NCBI GenBank assembly: GCA_012838585.1 | Contig: DUPB01000043.1 | Span: forward strand, 1 to 43,148 | Direction: 5' to 3' | Source: Bacteroidales bacterium | GTDB taxonomy: Bacteria; Bacteroidota; Bacteroidia; Bacteroidales; Dysgonomonadaceae | DNA: 43,148 bases | In this document: one piece after another, positions 27,116-43,148 of the stretch | Numbering within the stretch: the first letter of the stretch is position 1 | Layout: each line of letters opens with the position of its first letter | The notes under the pieces: model-generated | What the model saw: the letters and a program-made list of their open reading frames with translations, nothing else | Database searches by the model: none | What the model was told of the DNA's origin: nothing | Translations under genes and position numbers: made by a program

Positions 27116-27721
27116 ATGAATAAACAGGCACGGGAAATTCTTTTACAACGCGCGGTCGATTCGCTCAAGATCGAGAGTAAATCCATTTCAGATATCATTG
27201 ATTATTTGGATGCGGATGCATTTTGTAGGGCGGTTAAGGTGTTGAGTAGCTGTCCCAAGATAATCACTTGCGCCAGCGGCTCTTCGGGTATTGCGGCTAA
27301 AAAGTTTTCGCACTCTTTGTGCTGTATTGAACGGAATGCCCAGTTTCTATCACCCTGTGAAGCCATTCACGGCGGGATGGGATGCATGAAAAAAGGCGAT
27401 GCAGTGGTTGTTGTTTCCCGTGGAGGTAAAACGGCAGAACTGCTTCCCATTATCGAGGTGTGCAATAAAAAAGAGGTCATTCTTATAGGGGTTACAGAAA
27501 ACTTGGACTCCCCTTTGGCGAAAAGTGCACAAATCGTCATCCCGATGAAGATCGAGAGGGAGAGTGATCCCCTGAATGTTATGGCGACATCGAGCTTTAT
27601 TGTCACCGTTGCTCTTTTTGACGCCCTTTTGGCTGCCATCATGGAAGAAACAGGTTACGAGCTTGATCAATTCGCGCTTATCCACCCAGGTGGGGCAGTA
27701 GGGCAAAAACTTAATAATTAA
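27116..27721 (+). CDS. SIS-domain sugar-phosphate isomerase-like protein (KpsF/GutQ type without CBS)
   Basis: 201 residues, a single SIS domain. Family members interconvert aldose and ketose phosphates such as arabinose-5-phosphate and ribulose-5-phosphate. Visible are ITCASGSSGIAAKKFSHSL (50-68), SPCEAIHGGMG (79-89), VVVSRGGKTAEL (98-109), RESDPLNVMATSS (148-160) and the C-terminal HPGGAVGQKL with His190. The layout matches KdsD/KpsF, but the CBS pair is missing and Ser56 stands where those enzymes have GxGKSG with a Lys. His190 and the Glu residues (108, 149) are kept. This suggests a related but different sugar phosphate. First gene of the cluster; seven bases before the TIM-like gene. 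Confidence 0.85.
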   Translation: MNKQAREILLQRAVDSLKIESKSISDIIDYLDADAFCRAVKVLSSCPKIITCASGSSGIAAKKFSHSLCCIERNAQFLSPCEAIHGGMGCMKKGDAVVVVSRGGKTAELLPIIEVCNKKEVILIGVTENLDSPLAKSAQIVIPMKIERESDPLNVMATSSFIVTVALFDALLAAIMEETGYELDQFALIHPGGAVGQKLNN

Positions 27722-27728
27722 CATCGCC

Positions 27729-28427
27729 ATGTATAAAGGATTAACGATTGAACCCCCGTTTTTTGAGATAGGGCCAAAGGCTTTTTTTTACGGTGAACGT
27801 ATGTTGAAGTTGGCAAAAGCGGCTGATAAGGCATCCGTTGAATATGACGTGCGCATTATATTAACCCCACAACCCACCGATATATACTTATTGGCGCAAG
27901 AGACGGAGCACGTTCACATATTTGCACAACATATGGACCCTATCACGATTGGTCGCGGAAACGGCTTTATACTCCCGGAGGCAGTAAAGGCAGCGGGTGC
28001 CACGGGGGTCATATTGAATCACGCGGAAAAGCCAATGACGATGAGCGATTTGTATAAAGCAATCAGGCGCGCGGATGAAGTAGGGTTAATTACCCTCGTG
28101 TGTGCCGATTCTATTAAGGAGGCCGAGGCCATCGCGCATTTCGCCCCGAATATAATCGTTGCCGAACCCACGGAGCTGATAGGTACCGGGCAGACCAGTG
28201 ATGAAGAGTACGTGGTTGCCACGACTTCGGCGATTAAAAAAATCAATCCCGAGATACAGGTCCTTCAAGCGGCGGGCATTAGCAACGGTCAAGATGTGTA
28301 CAAGGTTATCAAGGCGGGTGCCGACGCGACGGGAACCACCAGCGGGATTATGTTGGCGAAAGACCCTGAGGCCATGTTGAACGAGATGATGAGTGCACTT
28401 AGGCGGGCCTGGGACGAAATGCATTAA
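27729..28427 (+). CDS. Triosephosphate isomerase-like protein, archaeal-type short form
   Basis: 232 residues. The sequence follows archaeal-type TIM: PPFFEIGPKAFFYG with Lys17, FAQHMDPITIGRGNGFILPEA (65-85), ILNHAEKP with His98, CADSIKEAEAIA, and VAEPTELIGTG with Glu146, then GADATGTTSGIM for phosphate binding. All three catalytic residues (Lys, His, Glu) are present, so it should be an active aldose-ketose phosphate isomerase. Its place between a SIS isomerase and a kinase, and its unlikeness to the ~250-residue bacterial enzyme, argue for a dedicated catabolic role, perhaps on tetrulose or another short sugar phosphate, as seen for TIM paralogues in erythritol use. Confidence 0.85.
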   Translation: MYKGLTIEPPFFEIGPKAFFYGERMLKLAKAADKASVEYDVRIILTPQPTDIYLLAQETEHVHIFAQHMDPITIGRGNGFILPEAVKAAGATGVILNHAEKPMTMSDLYKAIRRADEVGLITLVCADSIKEAEAIAHFAPNIIVAEPTELIGTGQTSDEEYVVATTSAIKKINPEIQVLQAAGISNGQDVYKVIKAGADATGTTSGIMLAKDPEAMLNEMMSALRRAWDEMH

Positions 28428-28446
28428 GTAGCTACACGCGTATTTT

Positions 28447-28482
28447 TTTAATAATAGGAATCAATTTAATAATAGGAGTCAA
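28447..28482 (+). repeat. 18-base tandem duplication upstream of the YjbQ-like gene
   Basis: TTTAATAATAGGAATCAA is followed directly by the same unit with one change (GAGTCAA). It lies in the 78-base gap between the TIM-like and YjbQ-like genes. Confidence 0.9.
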
Positions 28483-28494
28483 TCAAATCAAAAA

Positions 28495-28502
28495 AAGGAG
28501 GG
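28495..28502 (+). promoter_or_regulatory. Strong Shine-Dalgarno sequence at the YjbQ-like start
   Basis: AAGGAGGG ends three bases before the ATG at 28506. Bacteroidota genes rarely use a strong Shine-Dalgarno sequence and none of the other genes here has one this good. It fixes the start, although the spacing is short. Confidence 0.6.
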
Positions 28503-28505
28503 AAA

Positions 28506-29006
28506 ATGAAACTTTACAGGGGAAGCATCCCGCTTCAATCGAAAGATTACAGGCCCGATTTTCATAACGTAACGGACAAGGTCAAGGAGATCGTACGGGA
28601 GTCCGGTATCAAAAACGGGATTTGCGTGGTGTACTCGCACCACACCACCTGTTCGGTAATCACGCAGGAGTGTTCTCACGATTTGAACTTTTTCGGTCGA
28701 GAATATTTGCAACAAGACCTGAACAACATCATGGAGAAGTTGATACCCACTTGTAGGACGGAAGGACAGTACCTGCACCCGGGGCCTAAGCACATTGAGT
28801 TCGCGCTCACTTTTCCAGATGAAGAACCCAAGGGCAGTTTAAACACGGACGCTCACCTTCGCTCGGTCTTTTTTGGGCGTTCGGAAACGATACCCCTCAT
28901 TGATGGCGAACTATCGCTGGGAGATTTCGGGTTCATCTATTTTATTGACTGGGATCAGATCCGTGAAAGGAAAAGGGTGTGTGAAGTACACATCATTGGT
29001 GAATAA
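28506..29006 (+). CDS. YjbQ/UPF0047 family protein, extended form
   Basis: 166 residues against about 135-140 for the usual family member. The family core is clear: VYSHHTTCSVITQE (42-55), DLNNIMEKLIP, TDAHLRSVFFGRSETIPLIDGELSLGDFGFIYFIDWD (118-150) and a final RKRVCEVHIIG. Extra residues are around HPGPKHIEFALTFPDEEPKG (92-111), between the two halves. Family members have been linked to thiamine-phosphate synthase activity in vitro, but the real role is unsettled. The conserved His of SHHTT and NTDAH suggest a metal or phosphate site. Twelve bases before the FGGY kinase and downstream of two isomerase-like genes, it more likely handles a sugar phosphate. Confidence 0.85.
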   Translation: MKLYRGSIPLQSKDYRPDFHNVTDKVKEIVRESGIKNGICVVYSHHTTCSVITQECSHDLNFFGREYLQQDLNNIMEKLIPTCRTEGQYLHPGPKHIEFALTFPDEEPKGSLNTDAHLRSVFFGRSETIPLIDGELSLGDFGFIYFIDWDQIRERKRVCEVHIIGE

Positions 29007-29018
29007 AACGTTTTTCAC

Positions 29019-30398
29019 ATGAGATGTTTGGTAGGTATAGATATTGGCACAAGCACCACCAAGTGTTTGTTGATATCGGAAAGCGGAGAGGTCATCCATC
29101 TATCTAAGCGGGCAAACAGCTATTTTACCGATTTCCCCGGCAGGGTTGAATTTGATGCCGAGGCGCGGTACAATGGTATTTGCTCGTTGATTAAATCGGC
29201 CGTACGCTCATTACCTGCTCAATATCACGTGGTGGCGGTCGCCATCTCTGGTGCAAGTGGAAACACGCTTTTGTTGGATGAAAACAAAAGCCCCATCCGT
29301 AACGCGATTGGCTGGCAAGACGAGAGGGCGAAAACGTTTTGTCAATCCGATGGATTCCCGTTCACTTCCGAGCACGTGCGTTCCATTTGCGGGTGGAGAA
29401 TGAGTGCCGGCTTCCCCTTGGGTATCTTAAGCTGGATGAAGCAAAATAGGGCGGATCACTATTTGTCCGCGACGTACCATGCAACCGATTTCGTATATTA
29501 CAACTACAGGTTATCGGGCAATTGGGCAATAGACAGGTCAACGGCGACGAACTTCTATTTGGTTGACCAGGTTCGTATGGAGTATCATCAACCGTTTTTA
29601 GATTACCTGCAGATAGAAAAAGAGACCCTTCCATGCATTATCGGCAGTGGACAGCCAATCGGCAGGATCACGAAGCAAGCTTCGTTAGAAACTGGTTTAC
29701 CCGAAGATACGGTAATCGTGGCGGGTGCCTTTGATCACCCATCATCGGCCAGGGGAACGGGGATGATGAACGTGGGTGATTTGCTTATATCTTGTGGAAC
29801 ATCGTGGGTAGGATTTTTCCCGATGAAATCGAGGGATGAAGTATGGCGCCACAACATGTTGATCGACCCGTTTTTAGCACCGGAAGGAGCTTGGGGAGGG
29901 ATGTTCTCGTTTACCAGCCTTGGCGATTACATCAACCGTTACATTCGTATCCTGTTTAATGATTCGGAAGATCGATACAAGAGGTTTGAGGCAGCAGTTA
30001 TACAGGCCCTCGATTCGAGCAACAAACCTTCGTTCGATGTAATGCAACAGGGGGTTCACCCCGAAAGGTACGTGTCAAAGATGCTGGAACTGTATGAAGT
30101 TCCGGAGCTCTGCTTGTCGATGTTAGTCTCTGTCGCCGATATGCTGTATAAAAGGATTGAATCATGCAAGCAATCAGGTATCCCCGTTAAGCGTGTGACC
30201 CTTGTTGGAGGGTTCGCGGAGATGGAGGTTTGGAAAGCTATTTTTAATGAGAAGTTGGGTTTGACTGTCAATGGTATGAAACATGGCAGCCACAGTGGAT
30301 GTTTTGGAGCCGCTATGCTTGCAGGCATGGGGGTAGGTATTTTTAATAACGAGTGGGATGGATTTACGAAAATGCATCTAAGCACTATGATTCTGTAG
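29019..30398 (+). CDS. FGGY-family carbohydrate kinase
   Basis: 459 residues. FGGY kinases phosphorylate sugars or ketoses with ATP in the cytoplasm. Visible are the N-terminal phosphate loop GIDIGTSTTKCLLI (4-17), the substrate region GWQDERAK near 97-104, the catalytic Asp239 in AGAFDHPSSARGTGMM, ISCGTSWVGF, and the second ATP-binding part VTLVGGFAEMEVW and HSGCFGAAMLAGMGVG. It is slightly shorter than typical xylulokinases (about 490). Substrate specificity is not readable; in this cluster it would phosphorylate the ketose made by the isomerase-like protein at 41336. Immediately after its stop, in the same frame, lies the tail of a lost oxidoreductase gene. Confidence 0.92.
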   Translation: MRCLVGIDIGTSTTKCLLISESGEVIHLSKRANSYFTDFPGRVEFDAEARYNGICSLIKSAVRSLPAQYHVVAVAISGASGNTLLLDENKSPIRNAIGWQDERAKTFCQSDGFPFTSEHVRSICGWRMSAGFPLGILSWMKQNRADHYLSATYHATDFVYYNYRLSGNWAIDRSTATNFYLVDQVRMEYHQPFLDYLQIEKETLPCIIGSGQPIGRITKQASLETGLPEDTVIVAGAFDHPSSARGTGMMNVGDLLISCGTSWVGFFPMKSRDEVWRHNMLIDPFLAPEGAWGGMFSFTSLGDYINRYIRILFNDSEDRYKRFEAAVIQALDSSNKPSFDVMQQGVHPERYVSKMLELYEVPELCLSMLVSVADMLYKRIESCKQSGIPVKRVTLVGGFAEMEVWKAIFNEKLGLTVNGMKHGSHSGCFGAAMLAGMGVGIFNNEWDGFTKMHLSTMIL

Positions 30399-30515
30399 AT
30401 GGATAAGCAGTCACTGATCAATATGGAGATGGCCCTTAATTTGACCGTAGGGGGGATTGTAGCACATCAATCGGCCCTGAAAAATGGGGAGCTGATGAAG
30501 ATCCCACAATTTTAA
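30399..30515 (+). pseudogene. C-terminal remnant of a Gfo/Idh/MocA oxidoreductase gene
   Basis: Directly after the FGGY stop and in the same frame is a 38-codon stretch containing MALNLTVGGIVAHQSALKN and ending GELMKIPQF, then TAA. It matches the C-terminus of the intact oxidoreductase at 38167-39450 (MALNMTVPGAVAHQSALRN, then GKILKVPHF) at about two-thirds of positions. No N-terminal or NAD-binding part precedes it, so it is the tail of a second, deleted copy. An ATG at 30399 could start a 38-residue peptide, but a functional peptide is unlikely. Confidence 0.85.
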
Positions 30516-30528
30516 ACTTTGCAGAATG

Positions 30529-30548: not shown

Positions 30549-30632
30549 GAGGTGAATGGTCCCGTATAACTTATTTTAATAATGAATCTGGATGAGAGAC
30601 CAAATGTTAATGAAGGAGTAAGGGATTTTAGT

Positions 30633-30656
30633 ATGAGTAACAAAAAAATTGAATGA
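30633..30656 (+). CDS. Possible seven-residue leader ORF (MSNKKIE) before susC
   Basis: ATG at 30633 opens a seven-codon frame whose TGA ends one base before the SusC ATG at 30658. It could couple or tune SusC translation. So short a frame may be chance. Confidence 0.25.
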   Translation: MSNKKIE

Positions 30657-30657
30657 A

Positions 30658-33600
30658 ATGAAAAACAAAATCTGTTTTGTACTTTGTCTCACCCTGCTTT
30701 TCCCACTTTATCTCTCCGCGCAAGATAGGATGATAAGGGGGAAAGTGATAGAGGCAGAAACAAACGAACCCCTACCCGGGGTGAGTATCTTGATCGAGAA
30801 CTCCACTAGAGGGGTTACAACGGATATTGATGGAACTTTCGAGTTAAGGGCAAGCGCTTCAGATAACCTGGTCTTCTCTTTTCTCGGGATGGAGTCGCAG
30901 ACTTTGAATGTAGGGGACAAAACCTACCTGGAGGTGACAATGAGTCGTCAGGTAAGTGATTTGGAGGAGGTAACCGTCGTGGGCTTCGGTAGGCAAAGAA
31001 AAGAAAGCGTGGTGGCCTCCATTACCACGGTAAGGCCATCTGAACTGAAAATACCTTCAAGCAACCTTACCACCGCGCTATCGGGACGGGTGGCGGGTAT
31101 GATCTCCTACCAGCGAAGTGGTGAACCCGGTATGGATAACGCAGATTTTTTCATTCGGGGTGTAACCACTTTCGGGTACAAGGTTGATCCCTTGATATTG
31201 ATTGACAACGTTGAGGTTACGCCTACGGATATGGCGCGCCTTCAGGTTGATGATATTGAGAGTTTTTCCATTATGAAGGATGCTACCGCTACCGCTATTT
31301 ACGGCGCAAGGGGGGCAAATGGCGTTATACTTATTACCACCAAGGAGGGGCAGGAGGGTCCGGCCAGGGTGAACTTCAGGGTAGAAAATGCCATGTCGGC
31401 ACCCACGAAAAAGGTGGAGCTGGCAGACCCGATTACCTATATGAAGCTTCATAACGAGGCTGTTTTAACGCGGGATCCCCTGGGGGTGTTGCCCTACTCG
31501 TACAAGAAAATTGATAATACCGTTATCGGGTCGGGAAGCTTAATGTACCCCACCACCGATTGGCAAGATCTGTTGATGAAAGACTATACCATGAATCAAC
31601 GGGTAAACCTGAGCGTGCGGGGTGGGGGAAAGGTGGCTCAATATTTCGTTTCCGGCGCGTTTAACCAGGACAACGGTATTTTGAAGGTGGATCAGAGGAA
31701 TAATTTCAACAGCAATGTTAACCTCAAGACGTACAGCCTACGTGGGAATATCAATATAAACCTTGGAAAAACTACCGAAATGTCGGTAAGGATGAACGGC
31801 TCCTTCGATGATTATATCGGGCCGCGTCAAGGGGGTACTCAAGTCTATAACGATGTTATGATGACGAACCCCGTGTTATTCCCGCCCTATTACCCGGCCG
31901 GGGAGAGGTATCAATACGTGAAACATATCATGTTTGGCAATGCTTCGGGAAGCAAGATGTTCCTAAACCCGTACGCCAATATGGTAAGCGGGTACAGGGA
32001 GTACTCCAGGGCCATGATGTTGGCTCAGCTTGAATTGCGACAAAATTTAAAAAGCATTACCGAGGGGTTGAATTTCAGGCTAATGATGAATACGACCCGA
32101 AATTCATTCTTCGATCTCACCAGGCAGTACAACCCTTTTTACTACTCTTATCAAGGTCTGGGTAGCAAAGGTCCAAACGACCATATCTATTACCTGATTA
32201 ACGAGGACAGCGGAACGGAATACCTGAACTACAGCGAAGGTGGCAAGCAGGTTAGTTCGGTGTTCTACATGGAATCCGCGTTAGACTATAACCGCACGTT
32301 TCAAGACAAGCATACCGTTAGTGCCCTGCTGGTTTACATCATGCGCAGCCAGTTGGACGGGAACGCGGGTAGTCTTCAGCTCTCGTTACCCTTCAGGAAT
32401 ATTGGACTTTCCGGTCGAACCACTTACGCGTACGACAAGCGCTACTTTCTTGAATTCAACTTCGGGTTAAATGGCTCAGAGAGATTTCACGTAAGCCAGC
32501 GATATGGCTTTTTCCCGTCCATTGGGTTGGCGTGGACGCTCTCGAATGAGGCATTTTGGGAGCCCGTGAAAAAGGTAGTGTCTAACTTCAGGCTACGAGG
32601 TACGTACGGGCTGGTAGGGAATGATGCTATTGGTAGTCCCGCTGACCGGTTCTTCTACCTGTCGAACGTGGTGATGCAGGAACCTGCGCGAGCCGCTGCT
32701 TTTGGTAAAGACCTCAGTTACCGCCATAACGGTATCTCCATCACGAGGTATCCCAATGAGGACATCACTTGGGAAACCTCCTACAAGACCAACCTGGCCC
32801 TTGAGGTAGGGCTGTTCGAGAAGACAAACATTCAGGTTGACCTGTTTAGAGAGTATAGGAGAAATATCCTGATGAACCGTTCCAATATACCCACCTCGAT
32901 GGGCTTGAGCGCCGCGATTGCTGCCAATGTGGGCGAAGCCTCCAGCAAGGGTGTTGATTTTTCGATCGATCATTCGCAGGCATTTAGGAACGGGTCGTGG
33001 TTTCAATCACGCGTGAACTTCACCTACGCTACCAGTAAGTACGAGGTCTATGAGGAACCACAGTACAAAGAGCCATGGTTGTACCGGGCGGGGTATCCTA
33101 TTCGCATTAACAGGGGATTAATTGCCGAACGGTTATTCATCGATGACCAGGATGTCAGCAACTCTCCCAAGCAGCATTTCGGAGAGGTGAGGGGTGGCGA
33201 TATTAAATACGTGGATGTGAACAAGGATGGACAGATCACGAACTTAGACCGTGTGCCCATTGGTTATCCAACCACGCCCGAAATAAATTACGGCTTTGGT
33301 TTTTCGTACGGTGTGAAAGATTTCGACCTCTCGATGTTTTTTCAGGGATCGGCTCGCTCGTCGTTCTGGATAGATCCTAGTGCAACGGCCCCCTTCGTGG
33401 AAAGAACCAGGGGAGGCTTCTACACCCAGACTCAGCTGCTGAAATCTTACGCGGAGGATTACTGGTCAGAGTCAAACCAGAATATTTACGCCTTGTGGCC
33501 TCGTTTAAGCGAAACGATCGTGGAAAACAACATCCAGACCAGTACATGGTTCATGCGCGATGGTACGTTTTTACGACTCAAGCAGCTTGAACTAGGTTAT

Positions 33601-33777
33601 ACTCTCCCTGAAAAATTGACGAACAATTTAAAAATGAGTAACCTGAGGTTTTACGTGAACGGCACCAACTTGCTGCTCTGGAGCAAATTTAAGTTGTGGG
33701 ACGTGGAGATGGCAGGCAACGGATTGGGGTATCCCATCCAGAGAGTCTACAACCTGGGTCTTCAATTATCATTTTAA
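30658..33777 (+). CDS. SusC/RagA-family TonB-dependent outer membrane transporter
   Basis: 1039 residues from the ATG at 30658; a TTG at 30649 is a weaker start. Signal peptide (CFVLCLTLLFPLYLSAQ), then a CarboxypepD_reg-like domain (IRGKVIEAETNEPLPGVSILIENSTRGVTTDIDGTFEL), the plug (EEVTVVGFGRQRKESVVASITTV, FFIRG, LILIDNVEV, SIMKDATATAIYGARGANGVILITTKEG) and a large barrel ending in YNLGLQLSF. SusC proteins import oligosaccharides with a SusD lid, powered by TonB. This is the only SusC/SusD pair in the window. No sigma/anti-sigma or hybrid sensor gene adjoins it. Confidence 0.97.
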   Translation: MKNKICFVLCLTLLFPLYLSAQDRMIRGKVIEAETNEPLPGVSILIENSTRGVTTDIDGTFELRASASDNLVFSFLGMESQTLNVGDKTYLEVTMSRQVSDLEEVTVVGFGRQRKESVVASITTVRPSELKIPSSNLTTALSGRVAGMISYQRSGEPGMDNADFFIRGVTTFGYKVDPLILIDNVEVTPTDMARLQVDDIESFSIMKDATATAIYGARGANGVILITTKEGQEGPARVNFRVENAMSAPTKKVELADPITYMKLHNEAVLTRDPLGVLPYSYKKIDNTVIGSGSLMYPTTDWQDLLMKDYTMNQRVNLSVRGGGKVAQYFVSGAFNQDNGILKVDQRNNFNSNVNLKTYSLRGNININLGKTTEMSVRMNGSFDDYIGPRQGGTQVYNDVMMTNPVLFPPYYPAGERYQYVKHIMFGNASGSKMFLNPYANMVSGYREYSRAMMLAQLELRQNLKSITEGLNFRLMMNTTRNSFFDLTRQYNPFYYSYQGLGSKGPNDHIYYLINEDSGTEYLNYSEGGKQVSSVFYMESALDYNRTFQDKHTVSALLVYIMRSQLDGNAGSLQLSLPFRNIGLSGRTTYAYDKRYFLEFNFGLNGSERFHVSQRYGFFPSIGLAWTLSNEAFWEPVKKVVSNFRLRGTYGLVGNDAIGSPADRFFYLSNVVMQEPARAAAFGKDLSYRHNGISITRYPNEDITWETSYKTNLALEVGLFEKTNIQVDLFREYRRNILMNRSNIPTSMGLSAAIAANVGEASSKGVDFSIDHSQAFRNGSWFQSRVNFTYATSKYEVYEEPQYKEPWLYRAGYPIRINRGLIAERLFIDDQDVSNSPKQHFGEVRGGDIKYVDVNKDGQITNLDRVPIGYPTTPEINYGFGFSYGVKDFDLSMFFQGSARSSFWIDPSATAPFVERTRGGFYTQTQLLKSYAEDYWSESNQNIYALWPRLSETIVENNIQTSTWFMRDGTFLRLKQLELGYTLPEKLTNNLKMSNLRFYVNGTNLLLWSKFKLWDVEMAGNGLGYPIQRVYNLGLQLSF

Positions 33778-33789
33778 CAATTAACGGCT

Positions 33790-35685
33790 ATGAGACATAT
33801 AAAAAGAATTTTTTTAACGATGGTCGTGGTTACAATGTTGTTGGCATCTTGCGATGACTTCATGGATATCGTGCCTGACAACGTGGCCACGCTTGACCAG
33901 GCCTTCTCCATGCGCAATACTACTGAGCGCTACCTGTTCACGTTGTATTCGATGATGCCAAGGCATGGTGCGAATGACCAAAACGGTTTCATGCTATCCG
34001 ATGAACTGTGGGGGGTATACCCCTACAATACCAACGTGGCATGGAGAATTGCACGCGGGGAGCAAAATGTGGTGTCGCCCATTCAAGATTACTGGAATGG
34101 GGGAAACGGTGGTCGGCGTCTGTTCATAACCATCAGGGACTGCAACGTTTTTTTGGAGAATGTTGTCAAGGTGCCCGATATAGAAGAGATGGAACTGGTG
34201 CGATGGAGCGCGGAGGCGAAATTTATAAAAGCGTACTGCCTCTATTGGATCTTCGAAAAGTATGGTCCCATACCCATTATGCGTGAAAATTTGCCCATAG
34301 ACGCTGGCGTGGAAGAGGTGAAGGTAAGGAGGGAACCGGTAGACGATGTGATCTCCTACATCGTTGACCTGATGGACGAGGCCATACCTGGCCTGCCCGA
34401 TGTGATCGAGAGCGAGGCAACGGAACTGGGACGCTTGACCAAGGTGGCCGCGATGGCGATTAAGGCGAGGGTATTGGTGACGGCCGCCAGCCCGCTGTTT
34501 AACGGGAACACGGATTACGCCCATTTTGTTGACTACCATGGAAACCCTTACTTCAATCAAGAGTATAGCGAGGAGAAGTGGCGCATCGCTGCAGAAGCCG
34601 CCAAAGAGGCCATTGATTTCGCCCATGAAAACGGGCATGAACTGTACTACGCGGAGACCGGGAGGTTGGGGCAAGTCAAGTTGTCCGATACAACCATTAT
34701 ACAGCTTGGCATACGAGGTAGCATCACCGAGAGGTGGAATTGCGAGCTCCTATGGGGAGATCCGAACAACAGGCTTGCACAGGTCGTGTATACGCCCCGA
34801 AGCTGGGATCCGCAAATAAGCCTATATGGTCTTTCAGGAAGGTATGGTCCTCCCTTGAAAATGATAGAGCAATTTTATACCGATAACGGTGTACCCCTGG
34901 ATGAGGACAGAGAGTGGGATTATCGCGGGAGGTACGAGTTGGCAGTAGCGGAGCATTCCGATAGGTACAACATCATGGAGGGATACACAACCGCTAAACT
35001 GCACTTTAAACGAGAAAACAGGTTTTACGCGAGCATCGGTTTTGACGGGGGCGTGTGGTACGGACAAGGAAGGTTTAACGATAACGATCCGTTTTACTTG
35101 ATGGGCAAAATGGGGCAATCAGCGGGCGTGATCGACCGCGAATTTCATAGTCCCACTGGCTACTGGCCTAAAAAGATGGTGCATCCCGAAAACGAAGTCC
35201 GTAACACCGGCTACGTGCAGGTTTGGTACCCTTGGCCAATTATTCGTCTGGCCGACCTCTACCTGCTCTACGCCGAGGCGGCCAATGAGTATGGCGGCCC
35301 TTCCGATGAGGTGTACCAATACATCAACTTGGTCCGGGAACGAGCCGGGCTCCCCACGGTACAGGACTCGTGGAGCAACTACTCTACGTCACCGGATAAA
35401 TATTTGTCGAAAGCGGGACTTCGGAGTATCATCCATCAAGAGCGAACCATTGAAATGATGTTCGAAGGGTATCGACATTCCGATTTAAGACGTTGGAAAA
35501 GGGCGGTTGCAGAGTTGAACGGCAACTTTATCTCTGGCTGGAATATCAGGCAGTCGGAGGCTCCCGCGTACTACAAACCGCGTGTTATTTTCGTTCAAGA
35601 ATTCACGCCCAAAGAGTACCTGTGGCCTCTAAGTGAACACTCGATTTTGGTTAACCCCAACTTAGACCAAAATCCAGGATGGTAA
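33790..35685 (+). CDS. SusD/RagB-family surface glycan-binding lipoprotein
   Basis: 631 residues, with a lipoprotein signal (VVTMLLASC, Cys21) followed by DDFMDIVPDNVATLDQAF, the standard SusD opening. The TPR-like helices (KFIKAYCLYWIFEKYGPIPIM; AAMAIKARVLVTAASPLFNG) and the C-terminal signature (RLADLYLLYAEAANEYGG .. INLVRERAGLP .. IIHQERTIEMMFEGYRHSDLRRWKRA, ending LDQNPGW) are all present. It forms the lid over SusC and selects the glycan. Length is slightly above average. Starts 12 bases after the SusC stop. Confidence 0.97.
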   Translation: MRHIKRIFLTMVVVTMLLASCDDFMDIVPDNVATLDQAFSMRNTTERYLFTLYSMMPRHGANDQNGFMLSDELWGVYPYNTNVAWRIARGEQNVVSPIQDYWNGGNGGRRLFITIRDCNVFLENVVKVPDIEEMELVRWSAEAKFIKAYCLYWIFEKYGPIPIMRENLPIDAGVEEVKVRREPVDDVISYIVDLMDEAIPGLPDVIESEATELGRLTKVAAMAIKARVLVTAASPLFNGNTDYAHFVDYHGNPYFNQEYSEEKWRIAAEAAKEAIDFAHENGHELYYAETGRLGQVKLSDTTIIQLGIRGSITERWNCELLWGDPNNRLAQVVYTPRSWDPQISLYGLSGRYGPPLKMIEQFYTDNGVPLDEDREWDYRGRYELAVAEHSDRYNIMEGYTTAKLHFKRENRFYASIGFDGGVWYGQGRFNDNDPFYLMGKMGQSAGVIDREFHSPTGYWPKKMVHPENEVRNTGYVQVWYPWPIIRLADLYLLYAEAANEYGGPSDEVYQYINLVRERAGLPTVQDSWSNYSTSPDKYLSKAGLRSIIHQERTIEMMFEGYRHSDLRRWKRAVAELNGNFISGWNIRQSEAPAYYKPRVIFVQEFTPKEYLWPLSEHSILVNPNLDQNPGW

Positions 35686-35704: not shown

Positions 35705-36907
35705 ATGAAAAAAGCATTAAAAATATTCACGGAACCAATTTCATTACTCTCCCTCGCGGTTGGATTGTTGGTTCTTGTTGGTTGTAAAGAAGAGGTACAT
35801 CAACCCCTCTCTCCAGGGATAAAGCCGGGTGTCGTGACCAACGTAAAGGTGGAAAATCGAAACGGCGTATCGGTCATCACCTACAGCCTTCCCAATGAAG
35901 GGGCCTTTTACGTGGTCGCTGAATATGAACCGAGGCCCGGTTTAAAACGGCAAACCATATCGTCGGTGTATAAGCAAGAGCTGGTTCTTGATGGGTTTGA
36001 ACGAGCCGCCGAGTACGATGTGGCTATTTACGTGGTAGGGCTGGATGAACAGCGCTCAGACGTGGTAAAGGTAAAGGTAAACCCGTTAACGCCTCCCTAT
36101 ATCGTAACATTCAACACGTTAGAGGTGAGTGAAGATTGGGGTGGAGTGAGCGTGAAGGCCATCAACGAGGAGCAAAATCACCTGGTGTTTGGTGTGTTCA
36201 CGTTAGATGAAAACAACGAGATCGATACGCTCGTGATGCACTACACGGAACAAGCCCAGGTTAAGTTCGCGGTGAGGGGACTGGAATCGAAGAACACGAA
36301 GTTTGGACTGTTCGTGAGGGACGCTTGGGAAAATTTTAGCGATACCATGTATCAGGAACTTAAACCGCTGTTCGAAGAAGAGCTGGATCGCTCTAAATTC
36401 AAGCAGGTAGACCTTCCCACGGATATGAACCTTTCGCACGCGCAGATGAGCACACCCATGCACTACATGTGGAATGACGAGATTGCTAACCGTAATATCC
36501 TGTTTCTTACACGGCCCAACGCGGCACCCATTCCCCAATGGTTCACGTTTGATTTGGCCAAGAAGAGCAAGTTGAGCCGAATGAAATTATGGCACCGGAC
36601 CACTTTTTTATTTGAGGGTGGAAACTTAAAACGCTTTGAGGTTTACGGAAGCAACGATCCCAATCCGGATGGCTCTTGGGAGAGCTGGACCCTGTTAGGG
36701 TACTTCGAGTCGTTTAAGCCTTCAGGTCTGCCCGTGGGGCAACTTTCAAATGAGGATATAGAGTATATCAACGCGGGTGAGGAGTTCGTGTTTGACCTTA
36801 ATATCCCCCCCGTGAGGTACTTGAGGATCAAGACCCTGGAGGTGTGGGGAGGCGTAAGCTATATCTCCATTCAGATGATGAAAATTTGGGGAGAGGTGGT
36901 TGAATAA
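35705..36907 (+). CDS. Surface lipoprotein, DUF4959-DUF5126-DUF5000-like
   Basis: 400 residues with a lipoprotein signal (LLVLVGC, Cys27). The N-terminal ~100 residues (GVVTNVKVENRNGVSVITYSLP .. FERAAEYDVAIYVVGLDEQ) fit a DUF4959-like immunoglobulin fold. The middle (TPPYIVTFNTLEVSEDWGGVSVKAINEEQ) fits DUF5126. The last ~150 residues fit DUF5000, a galactose-binding/discoidin-like sandwich (WNDEIANRNILFLTRP.., RFEVYGSNDPNPDGSWESWTLL, RYLRIKTLEVWGG). Such proteins follow SusD in many polysaccharide utilisation loci and probably bind glycan at the cell surface. The C-terminal part is shared with the next protein, suggesting duplication. Confidence 0.82.
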   Translation: MKKALKIFTEPISLLSLAVGLLVLVGCKEEVHQPLSPGIKPGVVTNVKVENRNGVSVITYSLPNEGAFYVVAEYEPRPGLKRQTISSVYKQELVLDGFERAAEYDVAIYVVGLDEQRSDVVKVKVNPLTPPYIVTFNTLEVSEDWGGVSVKAINEEQNHLVFGVFTLDENNEIDTLVMHYTEQAQVKFAVRGLESKNTKFGLFVRDAWENFSDTMYQELKPLFEEELDRSKFKQVDLPTDMNLSHAQMSTPMHYMWNDEIANRNILFLTRPNAAPIPQWFTFDLAKKSKLSRMKLWHRTTFLFEGGNLKRFEVYGSNDPNPDGSWESWTLLGYFESFKPSGLPVGQLSNEDIEYINAGEEFVFDLNIPPVRYLRIKTLEVWGGVSYISIQMMKIWGEVVE

Positions 36908-36927: not shown

Positions 36928-38148
36928 ATGAAACGAAATATAGTACTAAACTACAAGCATTTATTGTTGTCGGTCGTGATGGTACTGACATACGCTTGTA
37001 CAAAACAGGACCATTTTTACAAGGAGTTCGTGGAGGATAGGGTACAGCACTACGCGGGAAAAGCAGATAGCCTTAGGGTTTTCCCGGGTGACAATCGGGT
37101 TATGCTCAAGTGGTATCTGTTTGATCCCCTTGTGAATGCTGCATCCATTCATTGGAATAATAAGCGAGACTCGATGTTCGTGGAGCATGCAACGGGAACT
37201 GACTCCGTTGAGCTGATAATCAGCAACCTGCCAGAGACAACGCACACGTTTACCATCGTTACACGGGACAGAAACGGAAATAAGTCTATCCCGGTAACCA
37301 TTTCCGGGAGTTCCTACGGCAGCAACTTTAGGAAGACGATCAGCAACCGAATGATCAGGGATCTGGTATACCAAAACAAGAAGTTGTCTGTTAAGTGGCA
37401 GCCTGAATTGTCGGAAACCGCGCTGTTTACCGAGGTCGTTTTTTCTGACACGAACGGTAATCGCGAAACGGTAATCATGCCGGTTGATGAAAATGATTGC
37501 GTGTTGCCCGGGTATAAAGGCGGTTCATCCATTGAATACCGCACCGCTTTCGTACCCGAAAAGAACGCTATCGATACGTTTTACACGGAAGTAGCCGCGA
37601 TTACCCCGGAGGTGTACGAACTGCTCGACTGGTCGAAATTCAGAGAGGTGCGTCTACCTACCGATACCTATCAAGAGCACGCGACGTTAAAAACATCCAT
37701 GCCTAAAATGTGGAATGATGACATTACAAGCTCTTCCAATCTTTTCTTAACGGTTCCTAACTTGTCACCGATACCCCAATGGTTCACTTTTGACTTGGGC
37801 GTTACGGCTAGCATAAGCCATATGAGAATTTGGCATAGGGCAGGTTGGTATTATAACTTGGGTAACTTGAAACGCTTCGAGGTTTACGGGAGCAATGAGC
37901 CCAACCCGGATGGTTCTTGGGAGTCATGGACATTACTGGGAACTTTTCAATCCACGAAACCCTCCGGCTTGCCACTGGGGCAGACCTCCCAGCTGGACTT
38001 GGATTATATCTTGGCGGGTGAAATGTTTGTTTTTGAAAAGAACCTACCCCCGTTCCGGTACCTCAGGGTGAAAACGCTGGAAGTATGGGGTACCGTTAAA
38101 TATGTATGTATCCAAAAAATGCAAATCTGGGCAAACATTCCCAATTAA
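36928..38148 (+). CDS. Surface lipoprotein, DUF4998 plus discoidin-like domain
   Basis: 406 residues with a lipoprotein signal (VVMVLTYAC, Cys24). Residues about 40-220 (VQHYAGKADSLRVFPGDNRVMLKWYLFDP .. FTIVTRDRNGNKSIPVTISGSSYGSNF) resemble DUF4998 with paired fibronectin-like folds. The last ~150 residues match the DUF5000-like end of the preceding protein almost block for block (NLKRFEVYGSNEPNPDGSWESWTLLGTFQSTKPSGLPLGQ; RYLRVKTLEVWG). It is expected on the cell surface as a glycan-binding accessory to SusCD. The catalytic role is none or unknown; no acidic active-site motif was recognised. Confidence 0.8.
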   Translation: MKRNIVLNYKHLLLSVVMVLTYACTKQDHFYKEFVEDRVQHYAGKADSLRVFPGDNRVMLKWYLFDPLVNAASIHWNNKRDSMFVEHATGTDSVELIISNLPETTHTFTIVTRDRNGNKSIPVTISGSSYGSNFRKTISNRMIRDLVYQNKKLSVKWQPELSETALFTEVVFSDTNGNRETVIMPVDENDCVLPGYKGGSSIEYRTAFVPEKNAIDTFYTEVAAITPEVYELLDWSKFREVRLPTDTYQEHATLKTSMPKMWNDDITSSSNLFLTVPNLSPIPQWFTFDLGVTASISHMRIWHRAGWYYNLGNLKRFEVYGSNEPNPDGSWESWTLLGTFQSTKPSGLPLGQTSQLDLDYILAGEMFVFEKNLPPFRYLRVKTLEVWGTVKYVCIQKMQIWANIPN

Positions 38149-38166
38149 GTATAAATTACAAAAATC

Positions 38167-39450
38167 ATGAAAGGTAAAATGAAAACTTCAAATTTGGTGG
38201 ATAGTTCGGGTCAACTCTCCCCAACCTGTTCCTTGTTTGACCGGCGTACCTTTTTAAAATCGATGGGTATAGCTGTTCCCGCCCTTGGCTTAATAGGTTG
38301 TTCAACTACACGAAGGGCATCACAAGCCATGGAGGTGATGCCGGACAACGTTCCCGGGTTTGAAAAGGAGGTGGCTACCGCGGCCACGTACGAGGGCTGG
38401 GTACCGGTGTCTGACCGCAAGATAAAGTTTGGAATAATTGGACAGGGGGCTTCGAGATTTGGTTCCGCCTTCGGGTTTCAAGATCATCCCAATGTTGAAA
38501 TTGTCGCGGTGAGTGATCTGATACCAGAGCGTAGGGATGATTTGGCAAAGGCTTGTCGTTGCTCCAAGACCTACGACTCGCTGGAACTGCTCTTGGAAGA
38601 TAACGAGATAGAAGCCGTTTGGATCGCCACCGATGCCCCAAGTCACAAGGATCACACGATCAAAGCGTTGAAGAGGGGGAAGCACGTGGCTTGCGCGGTA
38701 CCTGCCATTTTTGGCTCCGTGGATGATGCTTACGAGCTCTATGAAGCGGTTAACGCGAGTGATCGCATCTACATGATGTTTGAAACGTCGATGTTCCACG
38801 AAGACCTGTGGGCGATGCGTCAAATTTATAAGGCCGGGGGTTTCGGGGAAATCATCTATTCAGAAAACTCCTATTACCATTACACCGGTCAAAAACTCAC
38901 CCCCTCATACAAAGAGTGGCGCAAAGGGTTACCGCCCATATGGTATCCTACCCACGCGACGGCTTATTACGTTGGGGTGACGGATGGTTATTTCACAGAG
39001 GTCTCCTGCAGGGGCGTGAAAAGCATTATCGAACACAGCATGCCCCAAAATAACCGCTATAAAAATCCTTTCAGGACTCACGTGGCCCAGCTTGTTACCA
39101 ATACCGGTGGGGTGAACAACACGGTGATTAGTTGGGACTCCTATGGGTTTGGGCGAGAAGGAGGTACGGTTAGAGGGCAGTTTGGTTCCTATCAAGGCAG
39201 CTATCAAGGTACGATGGAAAATCTGCCGAATGTAACCAGGCCCGCGCTTCCCGAGGGCTTGAGCGCTGGAGGACATGGCGGTTCGCACGGGCGACTAACG
39301 GATGAATTCGTTAGGGCCATCCTTGAGGAGAGGAAACCGCTTGTGGATATAGCCATGGCATTGAACATGACCGTTCCGGGGGCTGTAGCGCATCAGTCGG
39401 CCTTGAGGAATGGGAAGATTTTGAAAGTACCCCATTTCAAAAGCCGCTAA
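38167..39450 (+). CDS. Tat-signal Gfo/Idh/MocA-family (GH109-like) protein
   Basis: 427 residues. A twin-arginine motif FDRRTFLKSMG (Arg26-Arg27) leads a hydrophobic stretch to a lipobox LIGC (Cys45), so it is exported folded, presumably with NAD(P) bound, and possibly anchored. The Rossmann motif is FGIIGQGASRFG (88-99), followed by VEIVAVSDL. The usual catalytic EKP is replaced by Ala177-Val178-Pro179, like the xVP of secreted GH109-type NAD-dependent glycosidases, and an SENSYYHYTG segment resembles their ENxxY motif. GH109 members cleave alpha-N-acetylgalactosamine through a 3-keto intermediate, but many relatives are uncharacterised. It should act in the periplasm on the SusC/SusD-imported glycan. 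Alternative start at 38179. Confidence 0.85.
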   Translation: MKGKMKTSNLVDSSGQLSPTCSLFDRRTFLKSMGIAVPALGLIGCSTTRRASQAMEVMPDNVPGFEKEVATAATYEGWVPVSDRKIKFGIIGQGASRFGSAFGFQDHPNVEIVAVSDLIPERRDDLAKACRCSKTYDSLELLLEDNEIEAVWIATDAPSHKDHTIKALKRGKHVACAVPAIFGSVDDAYELYEAVNASDRIYMMFETSMFHEDLWAMRQIYKAGGFGEIIYSENSYYHYTGQKLTPSYKEWRKGLPPIWYPTHATAYYVGVTDGYFTEVSCRGVKSIIEHSMPQNNRYKNPFRTHVAQLVTNTGGVNNTVISWDSYGFGREGGTVRGQFGSYQGSYQGTMENLPNVTRPALPEGLSAGGHGGSHGRLTDEFVRAILEERKPLVDIAMALNMTVPGAVAHQSALRNGKILKVPHFKSR

Positions 39451-39594: not shown

Positions 39595-41322
39595 ATGGGA
39601 GACTCAGGTAACATTCAATTGGTCTTTTGGGATTACGCTGTATTCTTTGTTTACCTTGTTCTTATTTCGCTGATAGGCTATTACTTCGGAAGGAAAAAAA
39701 AGAAAAGCTCGTCAGACTTTTTCCTCGCGGGTAAGTCGCTGCCATGGTACGTGATTGGCAGCTCGTTCACCGCGGCGAATATCAGCACGGAGCATTTCAT
39801 TGGCGTGGTGGGTGCCGCGTTTATTTACGGGATAAGTATCGCGATGAGTGAATGGGCAAACGTTTTGTCCTTTACCCTTCTGATATGGATATTTATACCT
39901 TTTTTAATGGCATCCAAGGTCTTTAGTATTCCCGAATTCCTTGAGAAACGGTTTAACAGTACTATCCGACAGATCTTCGCGGTTGTTACCATAGCCACCA
40001 ATATCCTGGCCTTTTTGGCGGCCGTTCTCTACGGTGGAGGACTCATATTGCAGAAGTTGTTCGGTATTGATCTGATGATCTCTATTTTGATCATTAGTGC
40101 CATATCGCTTGCGTGGGCCGTGTATGGAGGGTTAAAATCCCTTGCCTGGATGGACGTGCTAACCGTGGCGGTTATGGTAATAGGGGGGCTATTGGTAACT
40201 TTCCTCGGTCTCCATTATCTCTCAGGCGATTCCCATTCGATCATCGAGGGTTTTAAGATCATGCTTGAGCGCAATCGTGCGGAAACGGGTATTTGGCGCG
40301 AGGTGGTGCAGAAAAATATCCCCAATATGCTCGACTCGAATATTACCTCGTATAATAGGCTGTCGGTTGTCCAGCCTATCTCCCATAAGGTGACGCCGTG
40401 GCCCAACCTTATCCTGGGTGTATTCACCATTAGCATTTGGTATAATTGCTTAAACCAGTTTATGATTCAACGCGTGTTGGCCGCGAAAAGCACGTACCAC
40501 GCGAGAATGGGAATCGTGTTCGCCGGTTACCTAAAGGTGTTGATGCCCATTATCATTGTGGTTCCCGGTTTGATCTTGTTCGCCTTATACCCCGAAGTGC
40601 TCAACCTCGAATGGAGTGAAGTAAGGCCCGAGGCCGATAAGGGATACATTCACCTTATCCAGCTTCTTATTCCCATTGGAATAAAAGGAGTGATACTGGC
40701 CGTGCTGGTGGGCGCGATTCAATCAACCATCAGCGCGGTGTTAAACTCAACCTCTACCGTTTTCACGATAGATATATACAAGCGCATGATAAACAAAACC
40801 GCGTCGGAAAGTCGTTACGTGGCCATTGGAAGATGGAGCTCCGTGGTGGTTATGATTGTCTCCATCCTCATCGCTTTCTGGATCGCTAAAAGCAGCAGTA
40901 GCTTGTTTGTTTATACACACACCTTGTACGCCTTTTTCGCCCCTCCGTTTTCAGCGGTTTTCGTGCTTGGGATCCTGTTTAGAAGGATGAACGGAAAGGG
41001 TGCCCTCACAGCCGTTATAGCTGGATTCATTTTGGGGATATTGATCAAGGTATACGTGGAGGTGTCACCCGCGCCGCTGAGTTGGCTGGAACCGTACAAT
41101 ATGCAAGCTATCGTGGTCTGGTTTTTCAGCGTTATCGTCTGCGTGCTGGTCAGCCTTCAAACCGAGAGACCACGTCCTGAGCAAGTGAGCGACAAGCTGA
41201 CGATCAACTGGAAAAAACTGAACTTGTTCCATGACTTAGGCGATAGGTGGTATAAGAACGTGGTGTTATGGTGGGGAATCTTCGTGTTAATAGTGGTTGC
41301 CCTGGTCATCTATTTCTTCTAA
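39595..41322 (+). CDS. Sodium:solute symporter (SSS/SLC5, SGLT-like sugar transporter)
   Basis: 575 residues with 13-14 membrane helices. Family signs are DYAVFFVYLVLISLIGYYFGRKKKKSSSDFFLAGKSLPWYVIGSSFTAANISTEHFIG near the N-terminus (the sodium-site helix 1 region), LAWAVYGGLKSLAWMDVLTVAVMVIGG, and LVGAIQSTISAVLNSTSTVFTIDIYKR near residue 380, the SGLT-type helix 8 with STISAxLNS. Bacteroidota use such transporters to bring monosaccharides or uronates from periplasm to cytoplasm with Na+. Thirteen bases before the isomerase-like gene, it most likely supplies that enzyme's sugar. Confidence 0.94.
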   Translation: MGDSGNIQLVFWDYAVFFVYLVLISLIGYYFGRKKKKSSSDFFLAGKSLPWYVIGSSFTAANISTEHFIGVVGAAFIYGISIAMSEWANVLSFTLLIWIFIPFLMASKVFSIPEFLEKRFNSTIRQIFAVVTIATNILAFLAAVLYGGGLILQKLFGIDLMISILIISAISLAWAVYGGLKSLAWMDVLTVAVMVIGGLLVTFLGLHYLSGDSHSIIEGFKIMLERNRAETGIWREVVQKNIPNMLDSNITSYNRLSVVQPISHKVTPWPNLILGVFTISIWYNCLNQFMIQRVLAAKSTYHARMGIVFAGYLKVLMPIIIVVPGLILFALYPEVLNLEWSEVRPEADKGYIHLIQLLIPIGIKGVILAVLVGAIQSTISAVLNSTSTVFTIDIYKRMINKTASESRYVAIGRWSSVVVMIVSILIAFWIAKSSSSLFVYTHTLYAFFAPPFSAVFVLGILFRRMNGKGALTAVIAGFILGILIKVYVEVSPAPLSWLEPYNMQAIVVWFFSVIVCVLVSLQTERPRPEQVSDKLTINWKKLNLFHDLGDRWYKNVVLWWGIFVLIVVALVIYFF

Positions 41323-41335
41323 TAATTAACGCTGT

Positions 41336-42724
41336 ATGCAACATGAAATGAAAGCCAAAATAGGCCTGCTCCCCATGTACCTGGAGTTGTACGATGAGGT
41401 GTTGCCTGAAGTAAGAAAGGAGTTTACACCCTTTATCAAACGACTTCAGCAGGAATTTGAAAGTCGAAGTATCGAGGTGGTCCTAGCCAATATATGTCGT
41501 TTGGCGAATGAGTTTGAAGAGGCGATTCATCGCTTTGAAGCTGAGGATGTTGACTGCATTGTCACGCTGCATCTTTCCTATTCACCCTCCCATGAATGCA
41601 TTGATGCACTGAGTAACACGCCATTGCCTCTGATCGTGTTTGATACCACGAAAGACAATCGCTTTGATTCAGCCTCCCTCATCATGGGCAATCATGGAAT
41701 TCATGGCGTGCAGGATATGTGTAACCTCTTGTTACGCAGGGGGAAGGATTTTTTCATCGAGGTGGGACATATCGATTCTTCTGATGTGTTGGATAAAATA
41801 GAGACCCGAATTACAGGTGCGCGGTTGGCAAAGGTATTCAAGGAGGGTAGAATAGGTCAAGTGGGAGGGTGGTTCAAGGGTATGGGCGATTTTCAAGTCA
41901 CCAGTGATGTGATTGCTGACAAGCTGGGATTTGAGGTCGTTCAGTCAACCGCCGAGGAATTTGAGCCATTCCTGCCGCGAAAAGATGCCCCTGAAGTTTT
42001 GGCGGAGATGGCGAAAGATCATGAGCGATTCGATCTCTCCGAGGTAAGTGAATCGGCCCATAACGCTTCTGTCGTGGCCGGCTTAGCTCTACGTAGATGG
42101 ATAGAGAAGGAGAACTTACTGGGCTTTACCGTCAATTTTCTCTCGATCTCCCGTAACGCCGGTTTATCCCAAATGCCGTTTTTGGGAATCGCTAAGGAAA
42201 TGAGCCGGGGGATTGGATATGCCGGCGAAGGAGACGTGCTTACTGCCGCACTGGCGGGAACGGTATCGCGGGTATTGGGCAGTGCCTCTTTTTCGGAAAT
42301 GTTTTGCCCCGACTGGTCAACCGACACGATATTTCTAAGCCACATGGGCGAAATGAATATCTCTCTCGTGGATGGTCAGGTCGTGTTATATGAGAAACCT
42401 TGGGCCTTTACAGACGCGGACTCACCGGTTTGCCCCTCCGGATGTTTTAAGGAGGGGGAGGCCGTTTTGATCAACCTGGCACCCGGGAAAAACGATACTT
42501 TTTCGTTAATCGTATCACCTGTAATGATGGTAGGGGAGATGTACGGGAACGCGATGGAGGGGAAGGTAAGGGGATGGTTCAAGCCGAGGTTATCGATTAT
42601 TGATTTTCTCAAACAGTATAGCCTTGCTGGGGGGACACACCACTTGGTGATCGCGTACGGGCAGCCTATAGGGGAGTTGATAACGTTTGCCGATATCATG
42701 AAGTGGAATACGGTGGTGATTTAG
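41336..42724 (+). CDS. L-fucose/L-arabinose isomerase-family protein
   Basis: 462 residues, cytoplasmic. The opening KIGLLPMYLELYDEVLPEVRKEF, the CIVTLHLSYSPSHECIDAL block near 78-96, GNHGIHGVQDMCNLLLRRGKDF, and the late GEGDVLTAALAGTVSRVLG and THHLVIAYG blocks follow the fucose/arabinose isomerase fold, which interconverts aldoses and ketoses with a divalent metal. The acidic ligands probably include the Glu of the AGEGD block. It is shorter than classical FucI (about 590) and divergent from AraA (about 500), so the sugar is unknown. It would feed the FGGY kinase of the same cluster. Start at 41336; ATG at 41348 is possible. Confidence 0.85.
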   Translation: MQHEMKAKIGLLPMYLELYDEVLPEVRKEFTPFIKRLQQEFESRSIEVVLANICRLANEFEEAIHRFEAEDVDCIVTLHLSYSPSHECIDALSNTPLPLIVFDTTKDNRFDSASLIMGNHGIHGVQDMCNLLLRRGKDFFIEVGHIDSSDVLDKIETRITGARLAKVFKEGRIGQVGGWFKGMGDFQVTSDVIADKLGFEVVQSTAEEFEPFLPRKDAPEVLAEMAKDHERFDLSEVSESAHNASVVAGLALRRWIEKENLLGFTVNFLSISRNAGLSQMPFLGIAKEMSRGIGYAGEGDVLTAALAGTVSRVLGSASFSEMFCPDWSTDTIFLSHMGEMNISLVDGQVVLYEKPWAFTDADSPVCPSGCFKEGEAVLINLAPGKNDTFSLIVSPVMMVGEMYGNAMEGKVRGWFKPRLSIIDFLKQYSLAGGTHHLVIAYGQPIGELITFADIMKWNTVVI

Positions 42725-42769
42725 CAGGTACGGCAGGTGCGATGGCGAACATAAAGATAAAATAATCGT

Positions 42770-43148
42770 ATGAAAGATCTGTTTGAAGTTAAACAGGTAG
42801 ATATCGAGTGTTATCAAAAAAACATCAGGGACTTCCTCCCTCCAAAGATTGTCGATATCCATACCCATGTTTACGTGAATAACGATGCCGTGAGCGACAG
42901 GTCACTGGACTCCAGGTTGGTAAGTTGGACCACCAAGGTGGCTAATCAAAACCCGGTAGAAGATCTATTCGAGACCTATCGCCTGATGTTCCCGGATAAA
43001 GTGGTGATCCCTTTAATGTTTGCGCATCCGAGGTACGCGGAGGATATCAATACGGTTAACCAGTATATCCTTGATGGTTCTCAAGAAGGTAAAGCATACG
43101 GCTTGCTGTTAAGCAAACCGGAATGGACTCCTACGCGGTTTGAGGATG
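42770..43148 (+). CDS. Amidohydrolase-family protein, N-terminal part (runs off the window)
   Basis: The frame from the ATG at 42770 is open to the end, giving 126 residues. KIVDIHTHVYVNN (26-38) holds the His31-x-His33 metal pair at the first barrel strand, typical of the amidohydrolase-related superfamily (COG2159-like). VVIPLMFAHPRYAED could be the next strands. Members hydrolyse amides, lactones or decarboxylate acids; in a sugar cluster a lactonase is one option. The start context AATAATCGTATGAA is the same as at the GH18 and GH51 genes. Forty-five bases after the isomerase-like gene. Confidence 0.8.
   Translation, partial: MKDLFEVKQVDIECYQKNIRDFLPPKIVDIHTHVYVNNDAVSDRSLDSRLVSWTTKVANQNPVEDLFETYRLMFPDKVVIPLMFAHPRYAEDINTVNQYILDGSQEGKAYGLLLSKPEWTPTRFED

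Follow-up and report, generated by a model that had tools for sequence, protein, structure and literature searches.

By analogy, the erythritol route is the nearest known chemistry to that predicted for a sugar locus at positions 27116 to 43148 of a 43,148-nucleotide stretch of Bacteroidales DNA (family Dysgonomonadaceae; assembly GCA_012838585.1, contig DUPB01000043.1). This stretch, termed the window, is the entire contig (G000:C222). The erythritol enzymes are EryA, EryB, EryC, EryH, and EryI (PMC10190533). The published route employs a kinase acting on erythritol, a dehydrogenase, and three isomerases, among them the triose-phosphate isomerase (TIM) paralog TpiA2/EryH and the RpiB-type EryI (PMC5992420). 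Both systems combine a kinase with multiple phosphosugar isomerases, including a TIM paralog. The window differs in having an archaeal-type TIM with an Asn to Gly replacement, a SIS-domain protein in place of RpiB, an added YjbQ protein, an AraA-like entry enzyme, and aldolases in its relatives.

Other described systems share fewer features with the locus. The D-apiose cluster is recognized by the kinase AplK and the two transketolases AptA and AptB, and its isomerase is ApsI (PMC13001218). The window also pairs an isomerase with a kinase, possibly acting on a plant sugar, but it has no transketolase pair, and TIM, YjbQ, and SIS have no place in the apiose pathway. The L-arabinose AraBAD pathway likewise uses an AraA-family isomerase and an FGGY kinase, whereas the window isomerase falls far under the AraA cut-off, no AraD is encoded in the locus, and extra isomerases are present. 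The arabinose-5-phosphate isomerases KdsD and GutQ have the SIS fold in common with the window protein, which is a SIS domain only (201 residues) and scores 129.3 bits against a GutQ cut-off of 481 and 115 bits against a KdsD cut-off of 505. Degradation of autoinducer-2 by the LSR system (LsrK/LsrF) also employs an FGGY kinase, and an aldolase encoded in relatives of the window locus is nearest to MJ0400 and LsrF; the window differs in its aldose isomerase entry, its TIM and YjbQ, and its lack of an aldolase. The YjbQ/UPF0047 family has nine solved relatives and is termed a family of 'unknown function' in a 2021 review (PMC7954711). No published account of a SIS-TIM-YjbQ-kinase gene set was found in the literature searched.

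We consider it probable that the window encodes a catabolic locus for one sugar or oligosaccharide, in which an aldose would be converted to a ketose phosphate that is rearranged by TIM, YjbQ, and SIS. The initial annotation had predicted sugar catabolism that proceeds from aldose to ketose to ketose phosphate, together with additional isomerizations, and gene association supports this prediction well.

Gene company of the TIM-like enzyme

A genome collection (84,980 species) was scanned with three TIMs, which returned 59 loci, 10 of them archaeal. The set of 95 non-redundant bacterial loci combines the bacterial loci of the collection, the window, two sister loci from the same genome, 4 of the 14 plasmid records, and 40 regions taken from the class to which the L024 genome belongs, minus one duplicate. 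Genes within 10 kb of TIM that scored >100 bits were counted as co-occurring. Because the loci were chosen by TIM and the profiles were built from these same loci, the counts describe the company of this TIM and not the frequency of each family: YjbQ 83, FGGY 69, SIS 53, AraA-like 41, ceramidase-like 28, NagB-like 18, MJ0400/LsrF-type aldolase 15, FSA 14, AP2-type epimerase 7, class II aldolase 7, and Gfo/Idh/MocA oxidoreductase (Gfo) 6. In 65 of the 95 loci, no more than 500 bp separate TIM from a YjbQ gene on the same strand. YjbQ, FGGY, SIS, and AraA-like genes are found in none of the 10 archaeal TIM loci, three of which have an FbaB-type aldolase. Of the 395 genomes sampled from the window's class, 1 carries the TIM of this gene module, and that is the window's own; in the window's family, 8 of 101 genomes carry it. 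In the class of the L024 genome, a class that holds a sheep-colon Clostridia metagenome-assembled genome (MAG), 47 of the 391 genomes sampled have it, and 41 of the 56 places matched in that sample were taken in.

The closest comparisons come from the same genome and genus. The genome of the window holds two further SIS-TIM-YjbQ loci with TIM-like genes 76-77% identical to that of the window. Both run in the order DHDPS-like, MFS, NagA-like, NagB-like, ceramidase-like, FGGY, SIS, TIM, and YjbQ. The kinase and SIS are fused into a single 687-residue reading frame in one (L005:9845-11908) and are separate genes in the other (L004). These sister loci show that the upstream enzymes change while SIS-TIM-YjbQ is retained; in the window it is joined to another kinase and an AraA-like isomerase. 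The SIS-TIM-YjbQ-FGGY part recurs in the same-genus genome G080 (L007, the same locus as G080:C127 and L082) with 97-100% piecewise DNA identity to the window. Short stretches are absent between the matching pieces of L007 and Gfo-like sequence follows its kinase; an assembly fault, decay, and transfer are the candidate causes.

The AraA-like isomerase and the amidohydrolase of the window have their kin in Clostridia-class loci. Eight of these (L160, L163, L170, L172, L173, L176, L177, and L179) encode an isomerase 37-49% identical to the window enzyme over nearly the full length, and in a ninth (L171) the identity is only 23%. Amidohydrolases akin to the window piece (26-40% identity) are encoded in nine loci. 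In six of them, at most 84 bp separate this gene from the isomerase; in L176 and L177 a single kinase gene lies between the two, and L174 has no detected isomerase. The kinases of L172, L173, L176, L177, and L179 are 25-32% identical to the window kinase. L177 presents a single run of Gfo, FSA, SIS, an SGNH gene, YjbQ, TIM, a second YjbQ, isomerase, FGGY, and amidohydrolase. Based on the co-occurrence counts and these related loci, the window genes form a real set beyond chance.

Three further features of the module loci were recorded. Two YjbQ genes are present in each of L170-L174, L176, L177, and L179; they flank TIM in five of these loci and are divided between TIM and SIS in three. The ceramidase-like proteins (PF04734-type) accompany sugar kinases in the 28 module loci, and one is also found beside an FGGY kinase in L096 (L096:10164-11714). 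GH38 α-mannosidase genes lie near the module in L152 (L152:793-3465) and L179 (L179:9359-12436).

Exchange of partners around TIM and YjbQ

The strongest single fact in the analysis is a duplication in Mariniphaga sediminis. One contig of this species carries two loci, separated by 203 kb, that have a 1,252-bp block in common, running from the TIM start to the YjbQ stop (L016:9998-11249 and L017:9998-11249). The block is 98.3% identical in DNA and 100% identical in protein, and the 20.7-kb stretches compared contain no other match. The kinases of the two loci are 29% identical, and one locus has an isomerase and an MJ0400/LsrF-type aldolase while the other has NagA/NagB and SIS. One TIM-YjbQ pair therefore sits in two pathways, and TIM plus YjbQ is a reusable two-gene unit.

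Entry enzymes vary among the loci and consist of an AraA-like isomerase, NagA with a NagB-like protein, or a short-chain dehydrogenase/reductase with an AP2-type epimerase. All three are usual ways to a 2-ketose, and the core is accordingly read as a funnel for a 2-ketose. The MDE stretch is kept in 16 of 17 NagB-like proteins. The site that reads STGAS in two Glucosamine_iso proteins, which we take to be the phosphate loop, is PNP in 14 of the 17 and PNQ, GNP, or PVG in the other three. If this assignment is correct, the change hints at an unphosphorylated amino sugar as the entry substrate.

Exit enzymes are exclusive. Exactly one of SIS, MJ0400/LsrF-type aldolase, AP2-type epimerase, and class II aldolase is present in 82 of the 95 loci, none in 13, and two in no locus. 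FSA accompanies SIS in 13 loci, and all 13 proteins have FSA-type residues (numbered against what we take to be the FsaA sequence); the fourteenth FSA locus, L178, encodes a transaldolase-like protein. The MJ0400/LsrF-type aldolase, whose nearest relatives are MJ0400 and LsrF, occurs in 15 loci, all without SIS. The absence of an aldolase noted in the initial annotation thus holds for the window and does not extend to its relatives, which encode FSA, MJ0400/LsrF, or class II types. The Enterococcus and Lacticaseibacillus plasmid loci L071, L072, and L073 have a class II aldolase, TIM, and YjbQ, with no module kinase found; L072 and L073 have a phosphotransferase system directly upstream.

Window genes and active-site residues

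Alignment to 1hg3 shows that the catalytic residues K17, H98, and E146 are kept in the window TIM-like enzyme. In the N-x-K motif of this enzyme, Gly takes the place of the Asn that precedes the Lys by two positions. This position is Gly in 84 of the 93 readable module TIMs, Asn in 7, and Ser in 2, and it is Asn in 10 of 10 archaeal TIMs. The seven enzymes that keep Asn are those of the class II aldolase loci L071-L073, L166, L167, L169, and L178. A canonical tpiA (324 bits) is located on another contig of the same genome. The separate tpiA and the Asn to Gly replacement indicate that the module TIM is not the glycolytic one. This Asn presumably contacts the substrate in known TIM, and a Gly-type TIM is therefore likely to act on a larger or different substrate. 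The AraA-like isomerase residues E298, E321, H336, and H435/H436, which we take to be metal ligands, align with those of L-arabinose isomerases.

The features of the locus are listed in Table 1. The initial annotation counted twelve intact plus-strand genes; eleven are intact and located as described, and the twelfth is truncated because the window and the contig stop inside it. The gaps between consecutive genes are as described, measuring 7, 78, 12, 250 (259 from the next ATG), 12, 19, 20, 18, 144, 13, and 45 bases.

Table 1. Genes of the window locus, their coordinates, and the basis of their assignment.
Feature	Coordinates	Strand	Basis
SIS-domain sugar-phosphate isomerase-like, 201 aa	27116-27721	+	PF01380; KpsF/GutQ-like below curated cut-off; nearest solved structure 3fxa 'SIS domain protein'
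TIM-like isomerase, archaeal type	27729-28427	+	PRK04302 199 bits (cut-off 132); alignment to 1hg3; clade comparison
YjbQ/UPF0047 protein, subfamily with insert and own invariant residues	28506-29006	+	TIGR00149
FGGY sugar kinase, divergent	29019-30398	+	Family profile matches
SusC-like TonB-dependent transporter	30649-33777	+	CarbopepD_reg_2 and Plug domains
SusD-like lipoprotein	33790-35685	+	PF07980 198 bits, PF14322
Lipoprotein-like, DUF4959-DUF5126-DUF5000	35705-36907	+	Domain matches
Lipoprotein-like, DUF4998-DUF5000	36928-38148	+	Domain matches
Gfo/Idh/MocA oxidoreductase	38167-39450	+	PF01408; signal from translation
Sodium:solute symporter (SSS)	39595-41322	+	TIGR00813 316 bits (cut-off 184)
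AraA-like aldose-ketose isomerase	41336-42724	+	Family profiles; 37-49% identity to isomerases of eight Clostridia-class loci
Amidohydrolase, cut by contig end	42770-43148	+	PF04909 in relatives; nine related loci encode amidohydrolases with 26-40% identity

The window YjbQ passes the curated TIGR00149 cut-off of 67.75. The SusC-SusD pair (30649-35685) is a hallmark of Bacteroidota polysaccharide utilization loci. The Gfo/Idh/MocA translation has the twin-Arg stretch DRRTFLKS followed by the lipobox-like LIGC. The 126-residue amidohydrolase piece itself has no Pfam match and takes its family name from its relatives. Genes of the α-L-rhamnosidase type, GH127 (β-L-arabinofuranosidase type), GH2, and α-L-arabinofuranosidase lie upstream in the window together with an AraC regulator. 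Just upstream of the locus, a beta-helix gene adjoins the gene at 24799-26790, which encodes a protein with a weak GDSL/SGNH-type N-terminal match and a second part whose sequence reads as hydrolase-like. A short T-rich tandem run (ggcttttt/gacttttt) is located at 27033-27074, 5' of the SIS gene.

Proposed route and alternatives

SusCD and the two lipoproteins would carry the substrate across the outer membrane. The sugar may be modified or released by the exported Gfo/Idh enzyme, and SSS would bring it into the cell. The AraA-like enzyme, which keeps its key residues, is predicted to convert a free aldose to a 2-ketose, and the FGGY kinase would form the ketose phosphate. SIS, the TIM-like enzyme, and YjbQ would then rearrange this intermediate by carbonyl shift and/or epimerization into a form that enters central metabolism, through the FSA-type aldolase in relatives and here perhaps through an aldolase encoded elsewhere. 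The observations are the protein families, the catalytic residues, the association of the genes, and the exchange of partners around a TIM-YjbQ pair that stays the same; each reaction, the order of steps, and the sugar are predicted from them.

A more specific and distinctly tentative version is a carbonyl walk, in which dedicated isomerases would move the carbonyl stepwise along the chain until an FSA-type aldolase cleaves it. The kinase would phosphorylate C1 of the 2-ketose and the carbonyl would move away from the phosphate, with TIM acting next to the phosphate, YjbQ in mid-chain, and SIS at the far end. The original stereochemistry of the sugar would be erased, and the split would yield glyceraldehyde 3-phosphate plus glycolaldehyde, dihydroxyacetone, or, from 6-deoxy sugars, hydroxyacetone. 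If stereochemistry is rewritten in this way, a single core could be enough for a wide range of rare aldoses, N-acetyl amino sugars, and alditols, and the swapped entry enzymes suggest such broad service. The carbonyl walk agrees with the number of isomerases in SIS loci; it leaves unexplained the loci with MJ0400/LsrF-type or class II aldolases and the 42 of 95 loci without SIS.

Several results weigh against the proposed route. YjbQ is absent near TIM in 12 of the 95 loci and lies farther off or on the opposite strand in 18. Exit types mostly track clades: on the TIM tree, omitting the loci that lack an exit gives 5 changes among four states, and including all six groups gives 16; this was a quick tree in which 31 of 99 inner branches are open. 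Since exits follow clades, their exclusivity does not represent 82 independent events. There is no aldolase in the window, and FSA was not searched for in the rest of the genome. SusC, SusD, SSS, and one DUF5000 protein gave no match in 44 regions (L070-73/L140-179), and these genes, which look like Bacteroidota uptake parts, are therefore linked to the module by position only. The Gfo match in these regions is weak (24-25% identity). Recurrence of the genes in other genomes had been set beforehand as a check on the initial annotation; it was found for the core enzymes and not, in the Clostridia-class loci, for the uptake genes. Against the module kinases in A5 the window kinase shows 20-24% identity, and against the isomerases in A2 the window isomerase shows 14-26%. 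Neither has a homolog at strict limits in the 394 other genomes of the class sample; a near-identical kinase is nevertheless present in G080 of the same genus.

Four other explanations were weighed. An unlikely one is a tetrose pathway, in which the AraA-like enzyme would convert an aldotetrose to erythrulose, the FGGY kinase would form erythrulose phosphate, TIM would act as a tetrulose-phosphate isomerase in the manner of EryH, and SIS would replace EryI to give erythrose 4-phosphate. The precedent is the published erythritol route described above, and in the window a TIM paralog (27729) lies beside a sugar kinase (29019), with tpiA separate. A dhaL-annotated kinase near the Shinella module fits as well. 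According to the 2021 review, yjbQ overexpression eases the pyridoxal phosphate auxotrophy of an Escherichia coli pdxB mutant, with a suggested feed upstream of SerC, near C4 phosphates (PMC7954711). Against a tetrose, the occurrence of NagB-like proteins in 18 loci out of 95 and of aldolases in relatives would fit a chain of more than four carbons, and the window genes scanned contain SIS and no RpiB, the rest of the genome not having been searched.

It is more doubtful that TIM merely converts aldolase-derived dihydroxyacetone phosphate to glyceraldehyde 3-phosphate and that YjbQ is an unrelated thiamine-related protein. The conserved Lys, His, and Glu and the Asn of the seven class II aldolase loci suit this role, one solved YjbQ is titled putative thiamin phosphate synthase, and such an activity is reported according to the title of one paper. 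The separate tpiA and the Gly in 84 of 93 enzymes argue otherwise, as do the same-strand position of YjbQ within 500 bp of TIM (65 of 95 loci), the invariant residues peculiar to this YjbQ subfamily, and the two YjbQ genes in eight loci.

A locus for L-arabinose or another common pentose, with SIS-TIM-YjbQ merely adjacent, is less probable still. The upstream GH127 and α-L-arabinofuranosidase genes point toward arabinose, and the genome has no canonical AraA (a true AraA is present in 19 of 39 genomes of the genus), leaving the window enzyme as the only candidate; a 543-residue FGGY kinase read as AraB-like is encoded elsewhere in the genome. This isomerase, however, scores 83-86 bits against an AraA NCBIfam cut-off of 622, and in Clostridia-class loci its relatives are accompanied by TIM, YjbQ, or SIS. 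An aldolase-II search (PF00596) of the genome returned a 434-residue two-domain protein on C126 and a 99-residue piece at C239, with no clear AraD.

Apiose from rhamnogalacturonan II, suggested in the initial annotation, is very improbable and finds no support, because the upstream pectin-side-chain glycosidase genes, including the α-L-rhamnosidase type, and the isomerase and kinase are joined by no transketolase domain in the window genes scanned (the rest of the genome was not searched), whereas the published cluster is marked by AplK and two transketolases, and apulose lacks the C3 hydrogen that a TIM-type step requires.

The proposed catabolic route bears on how these families are read. 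Plasmid records annotate the TIM-like enzyme as triose-phosphate isomerase, in line with its score, but it probably has another role in Gly-type loci. In the class of the sheep-colon Clostridia MAG, the route may be common. Across phyla, the module links one subfamily of YjbQ with both a sugar kinase and a TIM-like enzyme; this link suggests a job for the YjbQ family and makes its function testable. If the carbonyl walk is true, YjbQ would be a phosphosugar isomerase.

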